35,083 nt of DNA from the NCBI RefSeq assembly GCF_012843435.1, contig NZ_JABAFC010000039.1:1-35083 (forward strand). The letters run 5' to 3'. How positions within the stretch are numbered: the stretch's first letter is position 1; every line of letters begins with the position of its first letter. This stretch comes from Psychrobacillus sp. BL-248-WT-3 (GTDB lineage Bacteria; Bacillota; Bacilli; Bacillales_A; Planococcaceae). A model generated the notes under the pieces. The model was not told where the DNA came from. It did not search any database and saw nothing but the letters and a program-made list of their open reading frames with translations. A program made the position numbers and the translations under genes. Of the stretch, positions 4,431-26,189 are shown one piece after another.

Positions 4431-5240
4431 ATGGAACGACACTTAATCGTATTAGACTTAGATGGAACTTTATTAACCGACCAAAAGGTTATTTCTGATA
4501 ACACGAAAAGAATTTTATTAAAGGCTAAGGATGAAGGGCATGAAGTAATGATTGCAACGGGTAGACCCTATCGCGCAAGTGAAATGTATTATCATGAACT
4601 TGGGTTAACTACTCCTATTGTCAACTTCAATGGGGCATTCGTACATCACCCTAGAAATCGTTCATGGCAAATGATACATAAACCAATTAGCTTGAATGTT
4701 GTAAAAGAAGTAGTTGAGGCAGTCCAAAGCTATTCGATAAAAAATATGCTCGCAGAAGTCCTAGATGACGTATACTTACATTATCATGATGAACAAATGA
4801 TCTCCGCTTTAGTACAAGGAAATCCCAATATAACTACTGGTGACCTTCGACAATTTTTAAACGCCGATCCAACTAGTTTACTCATACATGCAGAGGAAAA
4901 TTCAGTAGATGATGTTAGAAAGCATTTAAAAGAAGTTCATGCAGAAGTTATTGATCACCGCCGTTGGGGAGCACCTTGGGATGTTATTGAAATTGTTAGA
5001 CACGGTCTGAATAAGGCAGTAGGTCTCGACCATGTATCCAAATATTTAAATATCCCTAAAGATAGAATTATTGCATTTGGAGACGAGGATAACGATTTAG
5101 AAATGATTGAATATGCTGGCGTTGGTGTCGCAATGGGTAATGCTATTTCCCCTTTGCAAAATATCGCAAATGAAATTACTGCAACAAATAATGAAGATGG
5201 TATTGCAGAATTCTTAAAAGAAAGATTAAAATTGAATTAA
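4431..5240 (+). CDS. yitU: Cof-type HAD-IIB sugar-phosphate phosphatase family protein
   Basis: Haloacid-dehalogenase superfamily hydrolase of the Cof/IIB branch. Motif I is DLDGTLL with the nucleophile Asp, motif II is the ATGRPY segment, motif III is the Lys of LNKAVGL, and motif IV is GDEDNDLEMI. The cap domain lies between motifs II and III. Such enzymes dephosphorylate phosphosugars or flavin nucleotides; the substrate here is undetermined. ATG codons at 4413 and 4425 are also in frame, but the first overlaps the GAGGGGGA ribosome site. The ATG at 4431 sits nine bases after that site and gives 269 residues, matching YitU (about 270). ATG 4425 (271 residues) is the alternative. The DegV gene follows after 29 bp. 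Confidence 0.88.
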   Translation: MERHLIVLDLDGTLLTDQKVISDNTKRILLKAKDEGHEVMIATGRPYRASEMYYHELGLTTPIVNFNGAFVHHPRNRSWQMIHKPISLNVVKEVVEAVQSYSIKNMLAEVLDDVYLHYHDEQMISALVQGNPNITTGDLRQFLNADPTSLLIHAEENSVDDVRKHLKEVHAEVIDHRRWGAPWDVIEIVRHGLNKAVGLDHVSKYLNIPKDRIIAFGDEDNDLEMIEYAGVGVAMGNAISPLQNIANEITATNNEDGIAEFLKERLKLN

Positions 5241-5269
5241 TATAATTCACAAATTTTAGGAGGACAAAA

Positions 5270-6121
5270 ATGAGAATATTTGCCGACAGTGCAAGTGACT
5301 TACCAAAATTATTTTTTGAAACAAATCAAGTCGAGTTAGCACCACTTCGTGTTCATATTGACGATAAAGAATATGAAGATATAAACGACATTGTATCAAC
5401 AGAGGTATACGCAGAGATTAGAAATGGTAAGCAGCCTAAAACTTCTCAAACTTCTCCTGAACATTTCCTTCGTATTTTTGAGGATCTTGCTAAGTCAGGA
5501 GAAGAAGGTATTTACATCGCTTTCTCCTCAGAGTTATCAGGTACTTATAGTACGGCTGTGATGATGAAGGAACAATTATTAGAGACATATCCGGATATGA
5601 AGCTAACTATCATAGATTCAAAATGTGCTTCACTTGGATATGGACTGCTTGTAAAAGAAGCAGTAAAACTAAGAAATGAAGGACTAAGCCTTTCGGAAAT
5701 TGAAGAGAAAATTAGATGGAATGCTACACATATGGAACATCTTTTCACTGTAGATGACTTAGATTATATGGCCCGCGGTGGACGAGTTTCCAAAGCAAGT
5801 GCATTTATCGGTGGCCTGTTAAACATCAAGCCTGTACTTCATGTAGAAGAGGGCAAACTTGTACCGATTGAAAAAATTCGCGGCACTAAAAAAGTAATGA
5901 AACGTATAGTAGAATTAGTAGAGGAACGCGGAGGAAATTTAGAAGGACAAGTAATTGCTATTAGTCATGCAGACGTATTAGATCGAGCACAAGAACTAAA
6001 AGAAATGATATTAGAAAAAATGCAGCCTACAGATGTAGAAATTCATCTGATTGGTTCCACCATTGGTGCCCACACTGGCCCCGGAGCAATCTCTGTCTTC
6101 TTTTTGAACAAAGAAGCATAA
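5270..6121 (+). CDS. yitS: DegV family fatty-acid-binding protein
   Basis: A 283-residue DegV protein. Family members bind a fatty acid between two alpha/beta domains, and FakB homologues present it to the kinase FakA. Characteristic segments are FADSASDLP at the N-terminus, the SQTSPEHF loop (about 61-68) whose Thr/Ser contact the carboxylate, SSELSGTY (about 87-94), DSKCASLGYG (about 116-125), and the ARGGR segment with its glycine-rich turn (about 168-173). A strong AGGAGG site precedes the ATG. It is cotranscribed with yitU and followed by a terminator. A FakB-like role is inferred, and no fakA is in the window. Confidence 0.85.
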   Translation: MRIFADSASDLPKLFFETNQVELAPLRVHIDDKEYEDINDIVSTEVYAEIRNGKQPKTSQTSPEHFLRIFEDLAKSGEEGIYIAFSSELSGTYSTAVMMKEQLLETYPDMKLTIIDSKCASLGYGLLVKEAVKLRNEGLSLSEIEEKIRWNATHMEHLFTVDDLDYMARGGRVSKASAFIGGLLNIKPVLHVEEGKLVPIEKIRGTKKVMKRIVELVEERGGNLEGQVIAISHADVLDRAQELKEMILEKMQPTDVEIHLIGSTIGAHTGPGAISVFFLNKEA

Positions 6122-7076: not shown

Positions 7077-8519
7077 TTATTTCGCTTTGTTTTCATCGTC
7101 TCTTCTTCTTTGCTTTCCTTTTTTCCAAACAATTACGAGGAATAAGATAAATAACAAATAAGAGATTACCATTGCGATTATATAAGCTGTATTTAAACCT
7201 TTGCGGTCTGTTACTTGAAAGACTTCCACAATTTCACGATCAATAACTATGCGGTATGAGCCATCATCCGTGGTTCTAATTAAATCGGATTCAAAAATCC
7301 CTCTAACTTCCTTGTCTTCTCCTACAACTTCACTAGAAAGGTCAATACGTTGGGTAGCGCTAGTATTATTTACAACTATAATAAACGTTTCTTCTTCTGA
7401 TTCACGCTTATATACTGCATAACCATTTTCATTTTTTAGAACTTCTATGTCACCAGATCTAAGTGCATCTGATTTATTACGAATGGAGTTAACATCTTGG
7501 ATATACTCGATTAACTCTTCATCTACACGAAAATTCATGATTTGATGGCTTTCTTCTGGTACCTGACCGTTCATGGCAATTTCCGTTCCATATGTCATAT
7601 AAGGTACTCCAGGTAGTGTCAGTAGTGTTCCAATAGCAGCGCGAATGCGCGTCGGAGGGAACATGTTTTCCAAAGCACTATGGTAAGTAAAACGTTCTGA
7701 TACTAAATTGTCAATTAGGAGTAAGTCATTGGATTCAACCGAACTAATAACATCTGAAGGGTAATCCGTGTTTTTGAACGCATCTCTTAGTGCGACCATA
7801 CGTTGTTCTGAATAGTTGACATCAAAATTCGCATCGCTTTCCTCTAATGCTATAACATACATTGGATTTCTTACTTCTTTTAAGGCTGTAATCATTTCGT
7901 TTATAAATTCTGTAGGTGCGCCTTCTATTTCAGAAAGCTTCACTCCATCAATTTTGTACTTAGTAGCAAAAGCTACAATAGTGTCTTTAAGTTCAATTTG
8001 GACTTCTGGATTTTCTAAATCTAGTTTTAGTACGCCGTCTTTGGACATGATCCAATCTTGCTTGTCCTCTTCACTGGCCCAAGTATGCTGCGCACTATAG
8101 TTATTCAATGGAAATTCTATCATTAGTTTCATCTTTTGATTATGTGTTTTCTCAATCAAAGCTTCTAATTCATCAGCTGTTCCAAAATGTTTTTCAATTT
8201 CATTAAAATCTAAAATTGCTTTACCATCATAGGATTCCGTTGAGAAAACTGGACCGATAGAGAGTATTGAAAAGCCTAAATCACGTATGTGATCCATTTT
8301 GTCCATGATTCCTTTAAAATCTCCTCCAGCGAAGGCTAGATGATCTTTCGTATTAACATTGTAGTCATTTGCGACTGTGCTATTAAAATATCGGTCAACG
8401 TATAAGTCATAAATACTTTCATTTTGTATAGATGAATCCGCTGCTTGAGCACTAAAAGCAGTTGTCATCCATAGGCTGCTGAAAAGTACACTACAAACAA
8501 GCCATTTTTTAAATTTCAA
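7077..8519 (-). CDS. Membrane-anchored GH13 alpha-amylase homologue with lost catalytic residues
   Basis: A 480-residue secreted protein: signal peptide (about 1-26, ending AQA), a GH13 (beta/alpha)8 barrel, a C-terminal beta domain, one transmembrane helix (about 447-467) and a basic tail facing the cytoplasm. The architecture and the ESIYDLYVDRYF, GGDFKGIMDKMD, YGTEIAMNG and MNFR segments match the membrane-anchored alpha-amylases of Bacillaceae. The conserved catalytic regions are altered. Region I is EFPLNN instead of D-x-V-x-N-H. Region II is GVKLSEIEG (192-200), with Ser196 where the Asp nucleophile belongs. Region III reads VIALEES, with the acid/base position shifted or lost. Region IV is DNLVSERF (270-277), with Leu-Val replacing the His-Asp of NHD. 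The frame is open, so this is probably a non-catalytic glycan-binding or regulatory protein rather than a decayed gene. The start is TTG, six bases after GAGGAGG. Confidence 0.85.
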   Translation of the reverse strand: MKFKKWLVCSVLFSSLWMTTAFSAQAADSSIQNESIYDLYVDRYFNSTVANDYNVNTKDHLAFAGGDFKGIMDKMDHIRDLGFSILSIGPVFSTESYDGKAILDFNEIEKHFGTADELEALIEKTHNQKMKLMIEFPLNNYSAQHTWASEEDKQDWIMSKDGVLKLDLENPEVQIELKDTIVAFATKYKIDGVKLSEIEGAPTEFINEMITALKEVRNPMYVIALEESDANFDVNYSEQRMVALRDAFKNTDYPSDVISSVESNDLLLIDNLVSERFTYHSALENMFPPTRIRAAIGTLLTLPGVPYMTYGTEIAMNGQVPEESHQIMNFRVDEELIEYIQDVNSIRNKSDALRSGDIEVLKNENGYAVYKRESEEETFIIVVNNTSATQRIDLSSEVVGEDKEVRGIFESDLIRTTDDGSYRIVIDREIVEVFQVTDRKGLNTAYIIAMVISYLLFILFLVIVWKKGKQRRRDDENKAK

Positions 8520-8554
8520 GGTAATCCTCCTCTACATCGGGTCAACATAAAATT

Positions 8555-8584
8555 GTCTTGTTTATTTATACCCTAAAACAAGAC
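8555..8584. promoter_or_regulatory. Inverted repeat upstream of the amylase-like gene, possible operator
   Basis: GTCTTGTTT (8555-8563) and AAACAAGAC (8576-8584) form a perfect 9-bp inverted repeat with a 12-bp spacer that contains TATAAA on the - strand. It lies 36 bp before the TTG start of the amylase-like gene. The position suggests an operator over the promoter; the cognate regulator is unknown. Confidence 0.4.
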
Positions 8585-8800
8585 TTATCATCGTTAATTT
8601 TAACAAAGCTACGTTTCAATCGCTATGTTTTAAAAAGAAATACGTAGAAAATAAAAAAGTATTCGTCCAAACTGTGTCATATTAATAGCTTCTAGGGTTT
8701 CTAATCGTTTCCGGTCGGCTTTTGCTAAGACATTACTGCTGTATTGAAGAATTTTTTAAGTTCCTTTTAGATATTGAAAGTCTTCAGTCGGAATCTATTT

Positions 8801-9044
8801 GTTTCCGGTCGGCTTTTGGATAGACTTTGGCCATATCATTATCGGAGAAGTTTTAGGAGTGTTGTCGTGACTACCGTCACGACAACACTCTAATTTCGGT
8901 AATCTTATGGCTTAATTCTATCCGTCGCCTCCCTACAACTATTAGAAAAGGAATAAAGGCGTTTTAGCTAATGAAAGAATAAATAACTTTTCGAATGGTC
9001 AAGCGACTCGCGAAGATGCAATTTCGCGAACTCTTCGCTTTTTT
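8801..9044 (+). ncRNA. Candidate structured small RNA, copy A
   Basis: Read on the + strand the sequence folds as one extended arm: GGATAG/CTATCC, then GCCATA/TATGGC, then ATTATCGGAG/TTTCGGTAAT with wobble pairs, then a perfect 15-bp stem GAGTGTTGTCGTGAC (8857-8871) with GTCACGACAACACTC (8876-8890) capped by TACC. Downstream is a short ATTAG/CTAAT helix. The unit ends in a terminator-like hairpin (9001-9038) running into TTTTTT. No convincing promoter was identified and expression is inferred. Alternatives are a folded mobile repeat or a terminator-bearing remnant. Confidence 0.45.
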
Positions 9045-9168
9045 AAAGAATAATTCTTACTTATTTTTTTGAAAAGCTAATAAGAAGAATATCTATATCT
9101 TTAATGATAAACCAGTAAATCCTTACTTCCTATTTTGAGATATTAAAACCTTAAGCCATTGTCTATTC

Positions 9169-9410
9169 GTTTCCGGTCGGCTTTGGGATAGCTATGGCCA
9201 TATCATTAACGAGAAATTTTGGAGTGTTGTCGTGACTAACGTCACGACAACACTCTACTTTCGGTAATCTTATGGCTTAATTCTATCCGTCGCCTCCCTT
9301 CAACTATTAGAAACGGAATAAAGGCATTTTAGCTAATAAAGGAATAAAAATATTTTCTAATGGTCAAGAAGCTCGCGAAGATGCAATTTCGCGAGCTATA
9401 GGCTTTTTTT
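9169..9410 (+). ncRNA. Candidate structured small RNA, copy B
   Basis: This is the second copy of the element, with the same order of helices. The 15-bp stem is identical (9222-9236 with 9241-9255) but its loop is TAAC instead of TACC. The third helix is kept despite several base changes (ATTAACGAGA in place of ATTATCGGAG). The ATTAG/CTAAT helix is extended by one pair. The end hairpin GCTCGCGAA/TTCGCGAGC (9371-9379 with 9388-9396) is followed by TTTTTTT at 9404-9410. Two copies keeping structure through sequence change favour a functional RNA, but two copies alone cannot prove it. Confidence 0.45.
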
Positions 9411-9537
9411 ATATAGAAGTTCTTACTTATTTTTTTCAAAACGTTATTAGTAGTATATTACTTTATTTATTCAACCATTAATTGGCGAGTTTGGTTGGCT
9501 ATTTTATGCGTTCTGAAGCTGCAGATGTTTCTGCTGA

Positions 9538-10347
9538 TTATTCAAATTCATTCTTCCGTTTATTGAAAAAGTCGTAGAAAAATCTTACGTTTTCAAGCTC
9601 AGTCCATCTATTTGTTGTCAAAAGGGGTGCGTCAAGATTATAAATCTTAGCATCTAATGTTCCCAACATAAATGGAGAATGTGTCGCTATAATAAATTGA
9701 CAGTCAAAAAACCTTGCGAGTTTATTGATTTCTTCTGCCAACTTAATTTGGTTTGTAGGAGAAAGAGAGGTTTCAGGTTCATCGAGCAAGTATAATCCGT
9801 TTGGGACAAGATATTCATCAAATATCTGCATGGATGTCTCACCGTTAGAATACTTCTCATTAGAAAATTTCATAATCTTCATTTGTTTGTACATCTGTGA
9901 AGAATGTTTCAACTCTTCCAAACGTTCCTTAGTATATCCCAACCTAGAGTGTTGGTACAGGTAACCTTCCTTAAGAACCGCCTCCTGCTGAATCTTCTTG
10001 ATCTCATATAAAATATCTTCGCTTTTGATGTACAAACTATTATACGGTAGTTGATCTGACTCTCCGTCACTCTTATTTTCACCTAGCGCGTAGGAACATT
10101 CTGATATGTAATCTAACGGGTATATGTTATGGCTATTATTTGTTATTTCCTCAGCCCCCGTAATTTTAAGCTTGTTTGCCATTAAATTTAATAGTGTGGA
10201 CTTACCGGAACCATTGTTACCATACACTACTGTAATGTTATGAAAGACTAACACTTCTCCAGTTATTTTTCTAAACACATTGTATGGATATGCATTTGGA
10301 TTATTGACTGTATGAAGTGAAAGCTTGAAGCTTTTCAGATAGATCAT
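9538..10347 (-). CDS. Orphan ABC/SMC-like AAA family ATPase
   Basis: A 269-residue stand-alone ATPase of the predicted-ATPase (COG3910-like) type. Walker A is YGNNGSGKST (about 43-52), a signature-like YSNGETS lies at about 165-171, Walker B with catalytic Glu is LYLLDEPETSLSP (about 185-197), and the H-loop is ATHSPFML (about 220-227). There is no transmembrane segment, long coiled coil, nuclease domain or adjacent transporter gene, so it is not an importer component. Related single ATPases occur in defence and repair contexts, but none of the usual partners is next to it and I assign no function. The ATG is preceded by GGGAGG at nine bases. It is flanked by the structured repeats on one side and a decayed gene on the other, suggesting an accessory island. 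Confidence 0.75.
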   Translation of the reverse strand: MIYLKSFKLSLHTVNNPNAYPYNVFRKITGEVLVFHNITVVYGNNGSGKSTLLNLMANKLKITGAEEITNNSHNIYPLDYISECSYALGENKSDGESDQLPYNSLYIKSEDILYEIKKIQQEAVLKEGYLYQHSRLGYTKERLEELKHSSQMYKQMKIMKFSNEKYSNGETSMQIFDEYLVPNGLYLLDEPETSLSPTNQIKLAEEINKLARFFDCQFIIATHSPFMLGTLDAKIYNLDAPLLTTNRWTELENVRFFYDFFNKRKNEFE

Positions 10348-23379: not shown

Positions 23380-23566
23380 TTCTTATCTAGAGAAACCGAG
23401 GGATCAGGCCCTATGACGTTTCGGCAACAGGTTCAAATCTTTGAATACTGTGCCAACTCCTGCAAGCACACTGCTTGAAAGATGAGAAAAGTTGGCTTTT
23501 TCGTAAATTTTGGAGAGCTTTCTTTTTCTTATCGTTTTTAGATAAGAACAAGGAAGCTCTCTTTTT
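23380..23566 (+). promoter_or_regulatory. SAM-I (S-box) riboswitch with terminator
   Basis: The aptamer (about 23380-23486) has the S-box hallmarks in order: CTTATCTAGAG, the GAGGGATCAGGCCCTATGA core, CGGCAAC, GTGCCAACTCCTGC and GAAAGATGAG, where the last block closes P1 with CTTATC. The expression platform is a long hairpin, GAGAGCTT (23513-23520) with AAGCTCTC (23554-23561) and inner TCTTATC/GATAAGA, followed by TTTTT. High S-adenosylmethionine should favour termination, so metNIQ and the M20 gene should be expressed when methionine/SAM is low. Confidence 0.97.
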
Positions 23567-23636: not shown

Positions 23637-24662
23637 ATGATCGAGTTTAAAAATGTTTCCAAGACCTTTCGTCTTGGCAAGCGGGAGGTGCATGCAGTAA
23701 AAGATGTTTCTCTAAAAATAAAAGAAGGTGAGATATTTGGCATCATAGGATTTAGTGGTGCGGGAAAGAGTACGCTGCTCCGACTAGTTAATATGCTGGA
23801 ACGTCCTTCTGCAGGCTCTGTATTTATTCAGAATATCGATGTCAAATCATTGACTTCCAAACAGTTACGAGCAAGACGAAGAAATATTGGAATGATTTTT
23901 CAAAACTTTAACTTGTTCCACTCTCGCACAGTTGGCGGAAATATTGCTTATCCTCTAAAGCTAGCAGGCTTGAGTAAAAATGAAATTACAAAAAGGGTGA
24001 ACGAACTTCTTAGCTTTGTCGGGCTCTCTGATAAGGAGAAAGATTATCCAAGCCAGTTGTCTGGTGGTCAAAAACAACGTGTTGGTATTGCTCGGGCACT
24101 TGCTACCTCACCTGATATTCTCATTTGTGACGAAGCAACTTCTGCATTGGATCCAGAAACTACTGCAGAAATCCTTCGCTTACTTAAAAAGGTGAATAAG
24201 GAATTTGGAATTACCATTTTGTTAATCACACATGAAATGCACGTCATTCAGTCCATTTGCGATCGAGTAGCTGTCATGGAAAATGGAGAGGTTATTGAAT
24301 CAGGAGACGTATTCGATGTATTTACTGATCCACAGCATCTTACCTCTCAGCGCTTTATACGATCGGTGCAACAGGATTTACCTTCTCCTCAAATTTTAGA
24401 GGATTGGCGTTCTCGAGGAGGCAACGGCTTTTATCGAGTAATCTTCAAGGGAGACGTAACAAATAAAGCCATTTTATCTCAAGTAACTCAGAAGCATCGC
24501 ATTCATTTCAATATTGTTTATGGTTCTATACGAGAGTTACAGGAAAGGCTTTTTGGAGATTTAATAGTGTCTTTTGAAGGCGACACCGTGGCAATTCAAA
24601 GTGCCATTAATGAGCTAGAGACAATCGTTGACATTCAGGAGGTGGCAAAGCATGAAGGTTGA
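23637..24662 (+). CDS. metN: Methionine ABC transporter ATP-binding protein
   Basis: A 341-residue MetN: ABC ATPase with Walker A GFSGAGKST (about 38-46), signature LSGGQKQR (about 140-147), Walker B ILICDEATSALDP and switch His in LITHEMH, followed by a C-terminal ACT-like C2/NIL domain (about 265-341) that binds methionine and inhibits transport. The NIL domain separates MetN from other polar-amino-acid ATPases. AGGAGG precedes the ATG. The S-box upstream confirms control by SAM. It overlaps metI by 11 bp. Confidence 0.96.
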   Translation: MIEFKNVSKTFRLGKREVHAVKDVSLKIKEGEIFGIIGFSGAGKSTLLRLVNMLERPSAGSVFIQNIDVKSLTSKQLRARRRNIGMIFQNFNLFHSRTVGGNIAYPLKLAGLSKNEITKRVNELLSFVGLSDKEKDYPSQLSGGQKQRVGIARALATSPDILICDEATSALDPETTAEILRLLKKVNKEFGITILLITHEMHVIQSICDRVAVMENGEVIESGDVFDVFTDPQHLTSQRFIRSVQQDLPSPQILEDWRSRGGNGFYRVIFKGDVTNKAILSQVTQKHRIHFNIVYGSIRELQERLFGDLIVSFEGDTVAIQSAINELETIVDIQEVAKHEG

Positions 24663-25314
24663 TTGGAGTACTTTCTGGCCAAGAATTGTAGAAGCAACAG
24701 GAGAGACCATTATTATGGTTATTGCCACTTTAGTATTTGGTTCTATTTTAGGAATAACGATTGGTCTTCTATTATTCGTAACACGAGAAAGAAACATTTT
24801 AGAAAATAAAATTGTTTTTCAAGTGTTGAACATATTAATCAATATTATTCGACCAATCCCCTTTATCATCTTTTTAGTAGCCATCTCTCAGCTCACAAGA
24901 TTAGTGATGGGTTCAACGATTGGTACTGCGGCCGCCATTTTCCCAATGACGATTGTCGCCAGCTTTTCTATAGCTCGAGTTGTGGAAAATAACTTAGTAA
25001 GCATAGATCCTGGGGTGATTGAAGCAGCGCAAGCGATGGGTGCAAGTCCATTACGAATTATATTTACCGTTTTAATACCTGAAGCTTTAGGACCTCTTAT
25101 TCTCGGCTTAACCTTTATAACTGTTAGCTTAATAGACTTTTCTGCTGTGGCAGGAACAGTCGGTGGAGGCGGACTCGGTCATATAGCAATGACCTATGGA
25201 TATCAGCGTTTCGACGGAAGCGTTATGCTCGTAACCGTTATAATACTCATCGTTTTAGTTCAGCTTGCCCAGTGGTTAGGAAATGCATTATCTAAAAAAT
25301 TCATCAGACGATAA
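24652..25314 (+). CDS. metI: Methionine ABC transporter permease
   Basis: A 220-residue MetI with five membrane helices and the coupling-helix EAA-type motif EAAQAMGASPLRIIFTVLIP (about 124-143). The frame opens at 24628, but ATG 24652, eight bases after AGGAGG and overlapping the metN stop, is the natural start. The C-terminal half has the GTVGGGGLGHIAMTYGYQRFD segment typical of MetI. Confidence 0.95.
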   Translation: MKVDWSTFWPRIVEATGETIIMVIATLVFGSILGITIGLLLFVTRERNILENKIVFQVLNILINIIRPIPFIIFLVAISQLTRLVMGSTIGTAAAIFPMTIVASFSIARVVENNLVSIDPGVIEAAQAMGASPLRIIFTVLIPEALGPLILGLTFITVSLIDFSAVAGTVGGGGLGHIAMTYGYQRFDGSVMLVTVIILIVLVQLAQWLGNALSKKFIRR

Positions 25315-25325
25315 GGAGAATAGAT

Positions 25326-26189
25326 ATGAAAAAAATTAGTTTATTAGTCATTGCTCTTCTGGCAGCAATAGTCTTAGCAGCTTGTAACGACTCTTCAGCT
25401 GCTTCAGACAAGGATACAGTTAAGGTGAAAATTGGTGTGAATGGCTCTGATGGTGCCCAATGGCCAGTTTTAAAAGAGAAAGCAGCTAAAGAAGGAATTG
25501 AAATTGAGTTAATCGAGTTTGCAGACTACACTTTACCCAATAATGCCTTAGCACAGGGAGATATCGATTTAAATGCCTTCCAGCATATTTCCTTCCTTTC
25601 TCAATATGTAAAAGAAAGTGGAAATGACCTTGTTCCAATTGGTTCAACCATGTTTGCTCCTCTTGGCGTTTATTCGGAAAAAATTAAAGACATCAGTGAA
25701 ATCAAAAAAGGCGATAAAATTGCTATTCCAGATGATCCATCTAACCAGGCTCGTGCACTTCGTTTGTTAGAGTCTGCTGATTTAATCACCCTTTCAGACA
25801 GCTTCGGGCTTTTTGGAGATCCAAGCGGCATTGTAGAAAACCCATTGAACTTAGATATTATTCCTATGGTTGCCCAACAAACACCACGAGTGCTGCCGGA
25901 CGTTACTGCTTCTATCATTAATAACGGTGTTGCCGGTCAGGCTGGCTTCTCACCTGGTGAGGACCCTATATATAAAGAAGAAGGAAAGGATGAATCCATC
26001 TATCCTTATGTCAACACAATAGTAGCCCGTGGAGAAGACAAAAATAACGAAACATACACACGTATTGTCGAATTATATCAAGAAGAAGATATCCAGAAAG
26101 TTATCACCGAGGATACAAAAGGCGGATCCGCTTTAGTAATTTTAACGCAGGAACAACTAGATCAAACATTTGAAGATCTAATCAAATAA
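25326..26189 (+). CDS. metQ: Methionine-binding lipoprotein, NlpA family
   Basis: A 287-residue substrate-binding lipoprotein. The signal peptide ends in a lipobox LAAC, with lipidated Cys at about residue 20. The mature domain has VKIGVNGSDGAQWPVL, the QHISFL segment (about 84-90) and KKGDKIAIPDDPSNQARALRL in two blocks (about 125-145), all NlpA/MetQ signatures. It delivers methionine or derivatives to MetNI. The ATG follows AAGGAG; the gene begins 11 bp past metI. Confidence 0.95.
   Translation: MKKISLLVIALLAAIVLAACNDSSAASDKDTVKVKIGVNGSDGAQWPVLKEKAAKEGIEIELIEFADYTLPNNALAQGDIDLNAFQHISFLSQYVKESGNDLVPIGSTMFAPLGVYSEKIKDISEIKKGDKIAIPDDPSNQARALRLLESADLITLSDSFGLFGDPSGIVENPLNLDIIPMVAQQTPRVLPDVTASIINNGVAGQAGFSPGEDPIYKEEGKDESIYPYVNTIVARGEDKNNETYTRIVELYQEEDIQKVITEDTKGGSALVILTQEQLDQTFEDLIK

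Follow-up and report, generated by a model that had tools for sequence, protein, structure and literature searches.

Group IIC (class C) introns are reported to insert right after rho-independent terminators and to prefer the lagging-strand template (PMC8919778, PMC4424553). REP units measure 20–40 bp (PMC3733652). The bcr1 repeats of the Bacillus cereus group are 147–167 bp long and are presented, in the title of a reference, as mobile-element-like and group-specific (PMC2267715).

The window analyzed here is a stretch of 35,083 nucleotides from Psychrobacillus sp. BL-248-WT-3 (contig NZ_JABAFC010000039.1). An earlier note on this DNA had singled out two tandem, highly structured units. We conclude, with a probability of about 0.78, that each unit is a worn copy, standing in tandem with the other, of a non-autonomous, terminator-targeting, hairpin-rich mobile repeat of Psychrobacillus. 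Like group IIC introns, the repeat lies behind an intrinsic terminator (18 of 25 right ends, 22 of the 25 being from one species) and has its sense strand on the lagging-strand template (96 of 100 loci, two of the four lists used being lists of best matches); unlike them, it has neither a reverse transcriptase gene nor the GTGCG start. Its behavior is that of a IIC insertion, although the repeat itself falls outside that class. With the REP and REPIN sequences served by RAYT it shares an intergenic position, palindromic structure and a high copy number; a Y1 gene that is a candidate for a RAYT occurs in 18 of 19 genomes. The repeat differs from them in length, reaching 680–763 bp against the 20–40 bp of REP units in that source, and in that no RAYT gene was flanked by repeat copies at the 20 loci scanned. 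Unlike the MITE of a DDE transposon, it leaves no target-site duplication (23 elements). Compared by description, it resembles bcr1 and other repeats of the B. cereus group in being structured and dispersed, and differs from bcr1 in length.

The window locus

The units lie between the genes for an alpha-amylase family protein and an AAA ATPase. The features of the region, with scores from the covariance model R1 whose training set included both window copies, are as follows.

7077..8519, minus strand: flanking gene, alpha-amylase family protein (PF00128, E 1.5e-25)
8697..8755, plus strand: third, truncated copy, a fragment of the 5′ arm of the hairpin (nhmmer --max, shuffles, repeat family D2, genome G061)
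8757..8783, plus strand: left-end region of copy 1, worn, starting with TAAG; its position with respect to the core corresponds to that of the family's sharp left end, TAAGAAAA... (by eye, low similarity)
8784..8952, plus strand: core hairpin of copy 1, nested helices P1 to P6 (R1, 131.8 bits, E 4.4e-28)
8953..9046, plus strand: 3′ module of copy 1, a CGCGAA-GATGCAAT-TTCGCG hairpin (aligned in 20 copies)
9116..9151, plus strand: left-end region of copy 2, worn (assigned by eye, as for copy 1)
9152..9317, plus strand: core hairpin of copy 2 (R1, 125.2 bits, E 2.0e-26)
9318..9412, plus strand: 3′ module of copy 2, a GCTCGCGAA-GATGCAAT-TTCGCGAGC hairpin (alignment)
9472..9497, minus strand: possible worn hairpin CAACCA/TGGTTG, lacking a T-run, downstream of the ATPase gene (by eye)
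9538..10347, minus strand: flanking gene, AAA ATPase (PF13304, AAA_21, E 7.2e-15)

The two tandem copies, at about 8757–9075 and about 9116–9440, are strongly structured and approximately 86% identical over most of their length. A 224-nt block recurs in the window at 85% identity with an offset of 365 bp; blastn aligned copy 1 with copy 2 at 86% over most of copy 1, and MAFFT paired 8757–9075 with 9125–9440. The folding energy is −88.0 kcal/mol for copy 1 (z −8.4) and −86.3 kcal/mol for copy 2 (z −7.7), values as low as these being reached by 0 of 200 dinucleotide shuffles in either case. The identity of 85–86% and the shuffles bear out the two look-alike structured units of the earlier note and confirmed that the copies are real rather than due to chance. 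The 15-bp GAGTGTTGTCGTGAC stem, with its differing loops (TACC and TAAC), and the other helices named there are present in both copies. The note was also right in that the units share no open frame, the ORF list having no entry of at least 80 aa for 8520–9537, and match no known Rfam class, no Rfam 15 family reaching its gathering score over the copies (the best permissive match scored 27.3 bits against a cut-off of 58).

The truncated third copy was detected by nhmmer with an E value of 0.014 in the window and of 0.0012 at the matching place in G061, a genome of the same species. Its alignment exceeded 500 of 500 mononucleotide shuffles with the left consensus of the G015 type and 499 of 500 with that of the G007 type. 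The motif that marks the right end of other family members (see below) is not recognizable in the window, where the best match has 17 of 24 letters (at 9408); the possible hairpin at 9472–9497 occupies the place where the family's right end would abut.

In the rest of the window's own genome (G000), blast found three more partial copies of the 3′ module. R1 gave four matches in this genome, two of which are palindrome shadows, so that the two window copies remain; G061 carries the same copies at the window locus. At about 1190–1440 of locus L004, also in the own genome, an imperfect minisatellite made of AACCTTGCAGAGATGGCG-like units adjoins a partial element copy. Elsewhere in the window, a SAM riboswitch (RF00162, 86.8 bits) occupies 23380–23488 of the plus strand. 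The genes behind it (23637–26189) look like those for an ABC transporter ATPase, a permease and a lipoprotein, which we take to be the usual methionine-uptake arrangement.

A dispersed family in Psychrobacillus

Searching DNA with copy 1 yielded matches in 18 of 18 genomes of the genus, the own one included, and in 0 of 43 others. From the 30 loci so obtained 25 were aligned, five short matches being omitted. Alignment A3 and model R1 comprise 24 of these 25 (L030 was left out as near-identical to L017), and alignment A2 comprises 20, four more truncated copies being omitted. R1 describes a single hairpin of about 170 nt with many compensatory changes. It matched all 19 Psychrobacillus genomes, with 4–146 matches each among at most 147 candidates scored per genome. 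The training copies came from 13 of these genomes; the six others gave 10 (G001), 26 (G002), 139 (G011), 36 (G013), 33 (G017) and 4 (G061) matches. The R1 counts include palindrome shadows on the opposite strand, which by our count make up 22 of the 82 matches in G015 and leave 60 loci there. Across the wider family, R1 matched 28 of 200 genomes, namely the 19 of Psychrobacillus and nine of two related genera (six of g11 and three of g3), with up to 14 candidates scored per genome. A 21-base pattern was found in 78 stretches, all from Psychrobacillus.

An origin from a plasmid or phage was discarded, as blastn found no match in either collection; seven viral contigs contain the 16-mer TCGGTAATCTTATGGC, which may be chance. 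Literature searches, mostly outside subscription journals and including exact-sequence queries, retrieved no description of the element.

The covariance model, of a kind that the earlier note had proposed to build, did describe a conserved, covarying structured family. With a hand-written structure of 57 pairs, 86.3% of the cells in A3 (24 copies) are paired and 21 pairs have changed on both sides. None of 500 shuffles reached the observed value in four of five measures; for the remaining measure, further pair types, 40 of 500 did. When the partner columns were slid, pairing fell to 37–49%, a control that is favorable by construction because the structure was read off the same consensus.

Strand and transcription

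Covariation of this kind could be taken as proof of an RNA. The stems of 137 distinct aligned sequences contain 315 G-U and 247 A-C cells. A single fixed U-G pair contributes 114 of the G-U cells, so that without it A-C is the commoner of the two. In a comparison of the strands of copy 1, the minus strand folded with a z of −7.8 and the plus strand with −8.1. Since G-U and A-C cells are about equally frequent and both strands fold alike, the pairing names no RNA strand. Copying errors inside a hairpin may yield paired changes as well. Covariation was therefore set aside as proof of an RNA.

The earlier note had read the units as paired small RNAs transcribed from the plus strand, each with its own terminator. 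The very stable fold with its compensatory changes would suit such genes, and so would the terminator scan of the plus strand from 8500 to 9550, which returned two sites against 0.4 expected, one of them (9026–9038) ending copy 1. The terminal hairpin with its T-run is indeed there in both window copies but is no family trait, a run of at least five T in the last 30 nt occurring in 2 of 20 aligned copies, both from the window. The promoter scan fell below chance (one site against 3.5 expected), neither strand is favored by the G-U and A-C counts, and the sequence is dispersed over many sites in 19 of 19 genomes, being present or absent at one and the same gene end. The small RNA genes thus appear very improbable, and a plus-strand small RNA family was abandoned in favor of a mobile, terminator-targeting repeat, represented in the window by a worn tandem pair and one fragment.

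Ends and full length of the element

G015 and P. antarcticus have a sharp left end, which reads TAAGAAAAGCGCAAGCGCC or TAAGAAAAACCGGGC...GCCCGGTCC and is followed by the core. On the opposite strand this end consists of a hairpin followed by TTTTTCTTA, and it is terminator-like at a fixed offset in 36 of 72 elements. These 72 were obtained from 89 non-overlapping hits by dropping repeats of one core and those with short flanks. To the right, coverage declines gradually (51 elements), because interiors vary and other repeats are nested in them.

The full length is best seen in young copies of P. antarcticus, which measure 680–763 bp and include two pairs, one of 680 bp at 98.5% identity and one of 763 bp at 90%. 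Both pairs end in ...TATATACTTTCTTATCTTTT. The members of the first pair, L216 and L220, are 98.5% identical over the 680 bp and have different flanks, which points to recent copying. The right-end motif, scored as at least 18 of 24 letters, was recognized in 25 of the 72 elements, 22 of these being from P. antarcticus. When long terminal inverted repeats were looked for by eye, the only sequence that one end had in common with the complement of the opposite end was TAAGAAA, at differing offsets. Many P. antarcticus copies have a second repeat, TTGATTGGAGTG...CGGAAATCAGTAG, fused into their right part (L216, about 4750–4885; L209, about 5240–5440).

Presence and absence at one gene end

The region 3′ of dtd was compared across the 19 genomes. 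We take dtd, whose product served as query protein, to encode D-aminoacyl-tRNA deacylase, and yrvJ to be the gene converging on it. Within 700 nt 3′ of dtd (361 nt in G006), the core was found in eight genomes at E ≤ 1e-10, weakly in three and not in eight. The end of yrvJ is visible within 520 nt in about half of the genomes. Genomes G005 and G014, from two species, share one terminator (...GTACAACTTTTTTT) 3′ of dtd. In G005 the yrvJ end lies about 12 nt past it and there is no insert; in G014 an element begins right behind it with AAGAATTAGAAAGTATA, its left end having been lost. No copy is present 3′ of dtd in G000 and G061, the genomes of the window's species. In G013, the first 60 nt past dtd (L318) contain a lone P6-like hairpin before the next gene; it may be a remnant that has come to serve as a terminator.

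Close relatives of the window's ATPase gene were found in two genomes, G061 and G004, and a fragment in G016. There is no core 3′ of the relative in G004, a locus that does not qualify as a clean empty site because the next gene there differs.

Terminator-like hairpins at the right end

Beyond the right end there is usually an A-run followed by an inverted repeat, resembling an intrinsic terminator, presumably that of the facing gene. Junctions were scored by requiring at least five T in the last nine positions and a single hairpin of −6 kcal/mol or better. By this rule, 18 of 25 recognizable right ends abut a terminator-like hairpin with its T-run, as compared to 9 of 288 random positions. 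When the junctions were displaced by ten shifts of 10 to 300 nt, the counts were 3, 0, 0, 0, 0, 1, 1, 0, 0 and 1 of 23–25. As judged by reading, the 18 passing junctions comprise twelve that are mutually unlike and have the appearance of host terminators, four at which another copy supplies its terminator-like left end (tandem insertion) and two that fall inside other repeats. Among the seven failing ones, L193 abuts the left end of another copy, and at L184 the hairpin is strong but the T are too few; L153, L162, L178, L188 and L194 have no such signal or lie within another repeat. With right ends recognizable in 25 of the 72 elements, and 22 of the 25 belonging to P. antarcticus, the evidence for the target rule comes from a minority of elements, mostly of one species. 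It is carried over to the window by homology, because the right ends of the window copies are not recognizable and their left ends are worn.

No target-site duplication was found in 23 elements: the mean was 1.65 nt against 1.66 nt in permuted data, and 582 of 1000 permutations were as high. According to the earlier note, dispersed copies with target-site duplications would point to a mobile repeat; the dispersal was found and the duplications were not. The family is repeated genome-wide, is present or absent at one gene end, and has one sharp end, head-to-tail copies and no target duplication.

Orientation on the chromosome

In G015, G004, G008 and G003, each chromosome arm has a single turning point of GC skew and of coding strand. 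The core lies on the strand running against fork movement at 41 of 43 loci in G015 at E ≤ 1e-10 (56 of 60 in the whole list) and at 11 of 12 in G003 (E ≤ 1e-10). Among the best matches listed for the other two genomes, it does so at 23 of 24 loci in G004 and at all 21 in G008. Pooled over the four genomes and with shadows removed, 96 of 100 scored loci are against the fork. Gene direction predicts 81.9 (P 2e-5), an expectation computed from the 74–87% of sampled coding sequence that is leading; in G015 alone the excess is small (P 0.026). Most of the polarity is thus explained by gene direction, and the remainder fits insertion into one strand of the fork.

Neighboring genes were counted at 76 loci, using crude ORF calls of at least 90 aa and keeping orthologous loci from closely related genomes. 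On the right-hand side, the neighboring gene points toward the element at 66 of 75 loci. On the left-hand side, the neighboring gene is co-directional with the element at 47 of 76 loci, and at 38 of these it lies no more than 50 bp away.

Related repeats in other genera

The left end TAAGAAAAGCGNAAGCGCC occurs in 67 of 250 genomes of an order-level draw, all from the same bacterial family, and a reversed control pattern occurs in none. In genus g7, TAAGAAAAGCGNAAGCGCC ends head-to-tail units of about 123 bp, several of which lie behind terminators as seen by eye; one stretch (G115:C2:59142-59898) holds seven TAAGAAAAGCGGAAGCGCC copies at an exact spacing of 123 bp. These repeats share the left end and the head-to-tail tandem units with the Psychrobacillus element but differ in their unit length of about 123 bp and in their interior. 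No paper describing them and no published name was found. Repeats of this kind may also exist in other Bacillales. The own genome has one exact TAAGAAAAGCGNAAGCGCC match and might thus contain, beyond the window, a copy bearing this left end.

Proposed insertion route and candidate enzymes

Dispersal, structure, polarity and junction statistics were computed; what is said here of the enzyme and of an RNA or DNA route is our interpretation. Where the lagging-strand template exposes a terminator hairpin, a new copy would enter behind it, and insertion would run in the direction of the terminator (the minus strand in the window), as with group IIC introns. The far end of the element is often itself, in the direction of insertion, a hairpin followed by TTTTTCTTA, which may turn the inserted copy into a new target. 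Copies would thereby stack, giving the tandem pair of the window. The mover would act in trans, the candidates being a group II intron reverse transcriptase and a single-strand Y1 (RAYT-like) transposase.

RVT_1 and Y1 domains were sought in the 19 genomes, and 1500 bases on each side of the genes were scanned at 30 reverse transcriptase and 20 Y1 loci (out of 47 and 27 matches). These loci yielded no autonomous relative, none having a core or left end at the gene; the marginal exceptions are a worn core at one edge of L259 and, near L272, a motif resembling the right end. All seven reverse transcriptase loci scanned with group II models, out of the 30 fetched, match them (46–167 bits). Five of the seven introns (L232, L233, L234, L235 and L236) start with GTGCGCC behind a terminator-like hairpin and a T-rich stretch; by our reading of this start and position they are probably class C. 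A RAYT-like Y1 gene (177–246 aa; L261–L280) is present in 18 of the 19 genomes, with one to three matches each. The best NCBIfam model for the four Y1 proteins scanned is NF047646, REP-associated tyrosine transposase (59–80 bits; one of the four reaches the cut-off of 80). Among 80 of the 112 genomes first chosen, the RAYT gene occurs in 32 of 50 positive and in 15 of 30 negative for the left-end pattern. Within genera no link between pattern and RAYT was seen (23/34 against 7/11, 8/12 against 6/8 and 1/4 against 2/7), the test being weak because the pattern catches one subfamily only.

Copying through RNA, with a group II (class C) intron protein acting in trans at forks on a SINE-like transcript, is possible but doubtful. 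The RNA would be the minus strand and its 3′ end the terminator-like left end, which in this sense is a hairpin with a T-run (36 of 72 at the fixed offset); target and strand preference are those published for class C introns, and the genus has introns behind hairpins. However, the element lacks the GTGCG start, and in the single full copy scanned (L216:4240-5100) no group II model matched at E 5 or below, the best Rfam score being 25.8 bits against a threshold of 70. RVT_1 was without a match in three of the 19 genomes, among them G000 (G061, of the same species, has four), and copy number does not track the number of reverse transcriptases, as judged by eye. It is unlikely that the element moves as single-stranded DNA through a RAYT-like Y1 transposase, as a giant relative of REP or REPIN. 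The near-universal Y1 gene and its best model, a subterminal hairpin and the lack of target duplication speak for this route; against it are the 20 Y1 loci, none with a core or left end beside the gene, the missing link between gene and pattern within genera (the weak, one-subfamily test) and the want of a fixed tetranucleotide at the junction (by eye).

The repeats might instead be terminators or 3′ untranslated structures kept by the host, spread by recombination and blocking read-through between convergent genes. That the neighboring gene on the right faces the element at 66 of 75 loci would agree with such a role, as would the P6-like hairpin between dtd and the next gene in G013. We consider it quite improbable, given that the core was not found 3′ of dtd in eight of 19 genomes, that junctions are exact and that a 98.5% identical copy sits in different flanks. 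The mobile terminator-targeting repeat is thus the reading we retain.

Significance

The element could conceivably, though this is unlikely, be a bacterial counterpart of SINEs: a protein-less RNA that borrows the IIC reverse transcriptase and its terminator route, whose own terminator becomes the next landing site and which reaches dozens of polarized copies per genome. As a caution, an intergenic hairpin of a bacterium may covary strongly without being a regulatory RNA. Terminators are safe harbors for insertions, and the element family offers a countable and testable system for mobilization in trans, be it by an intron reverse transcriptase or by RAYT. A protein-less element that lands mostly at terminators, in one direction, and is able to rebuild its own target would explain the tandem structured intergenic repeats of this bacterial family.
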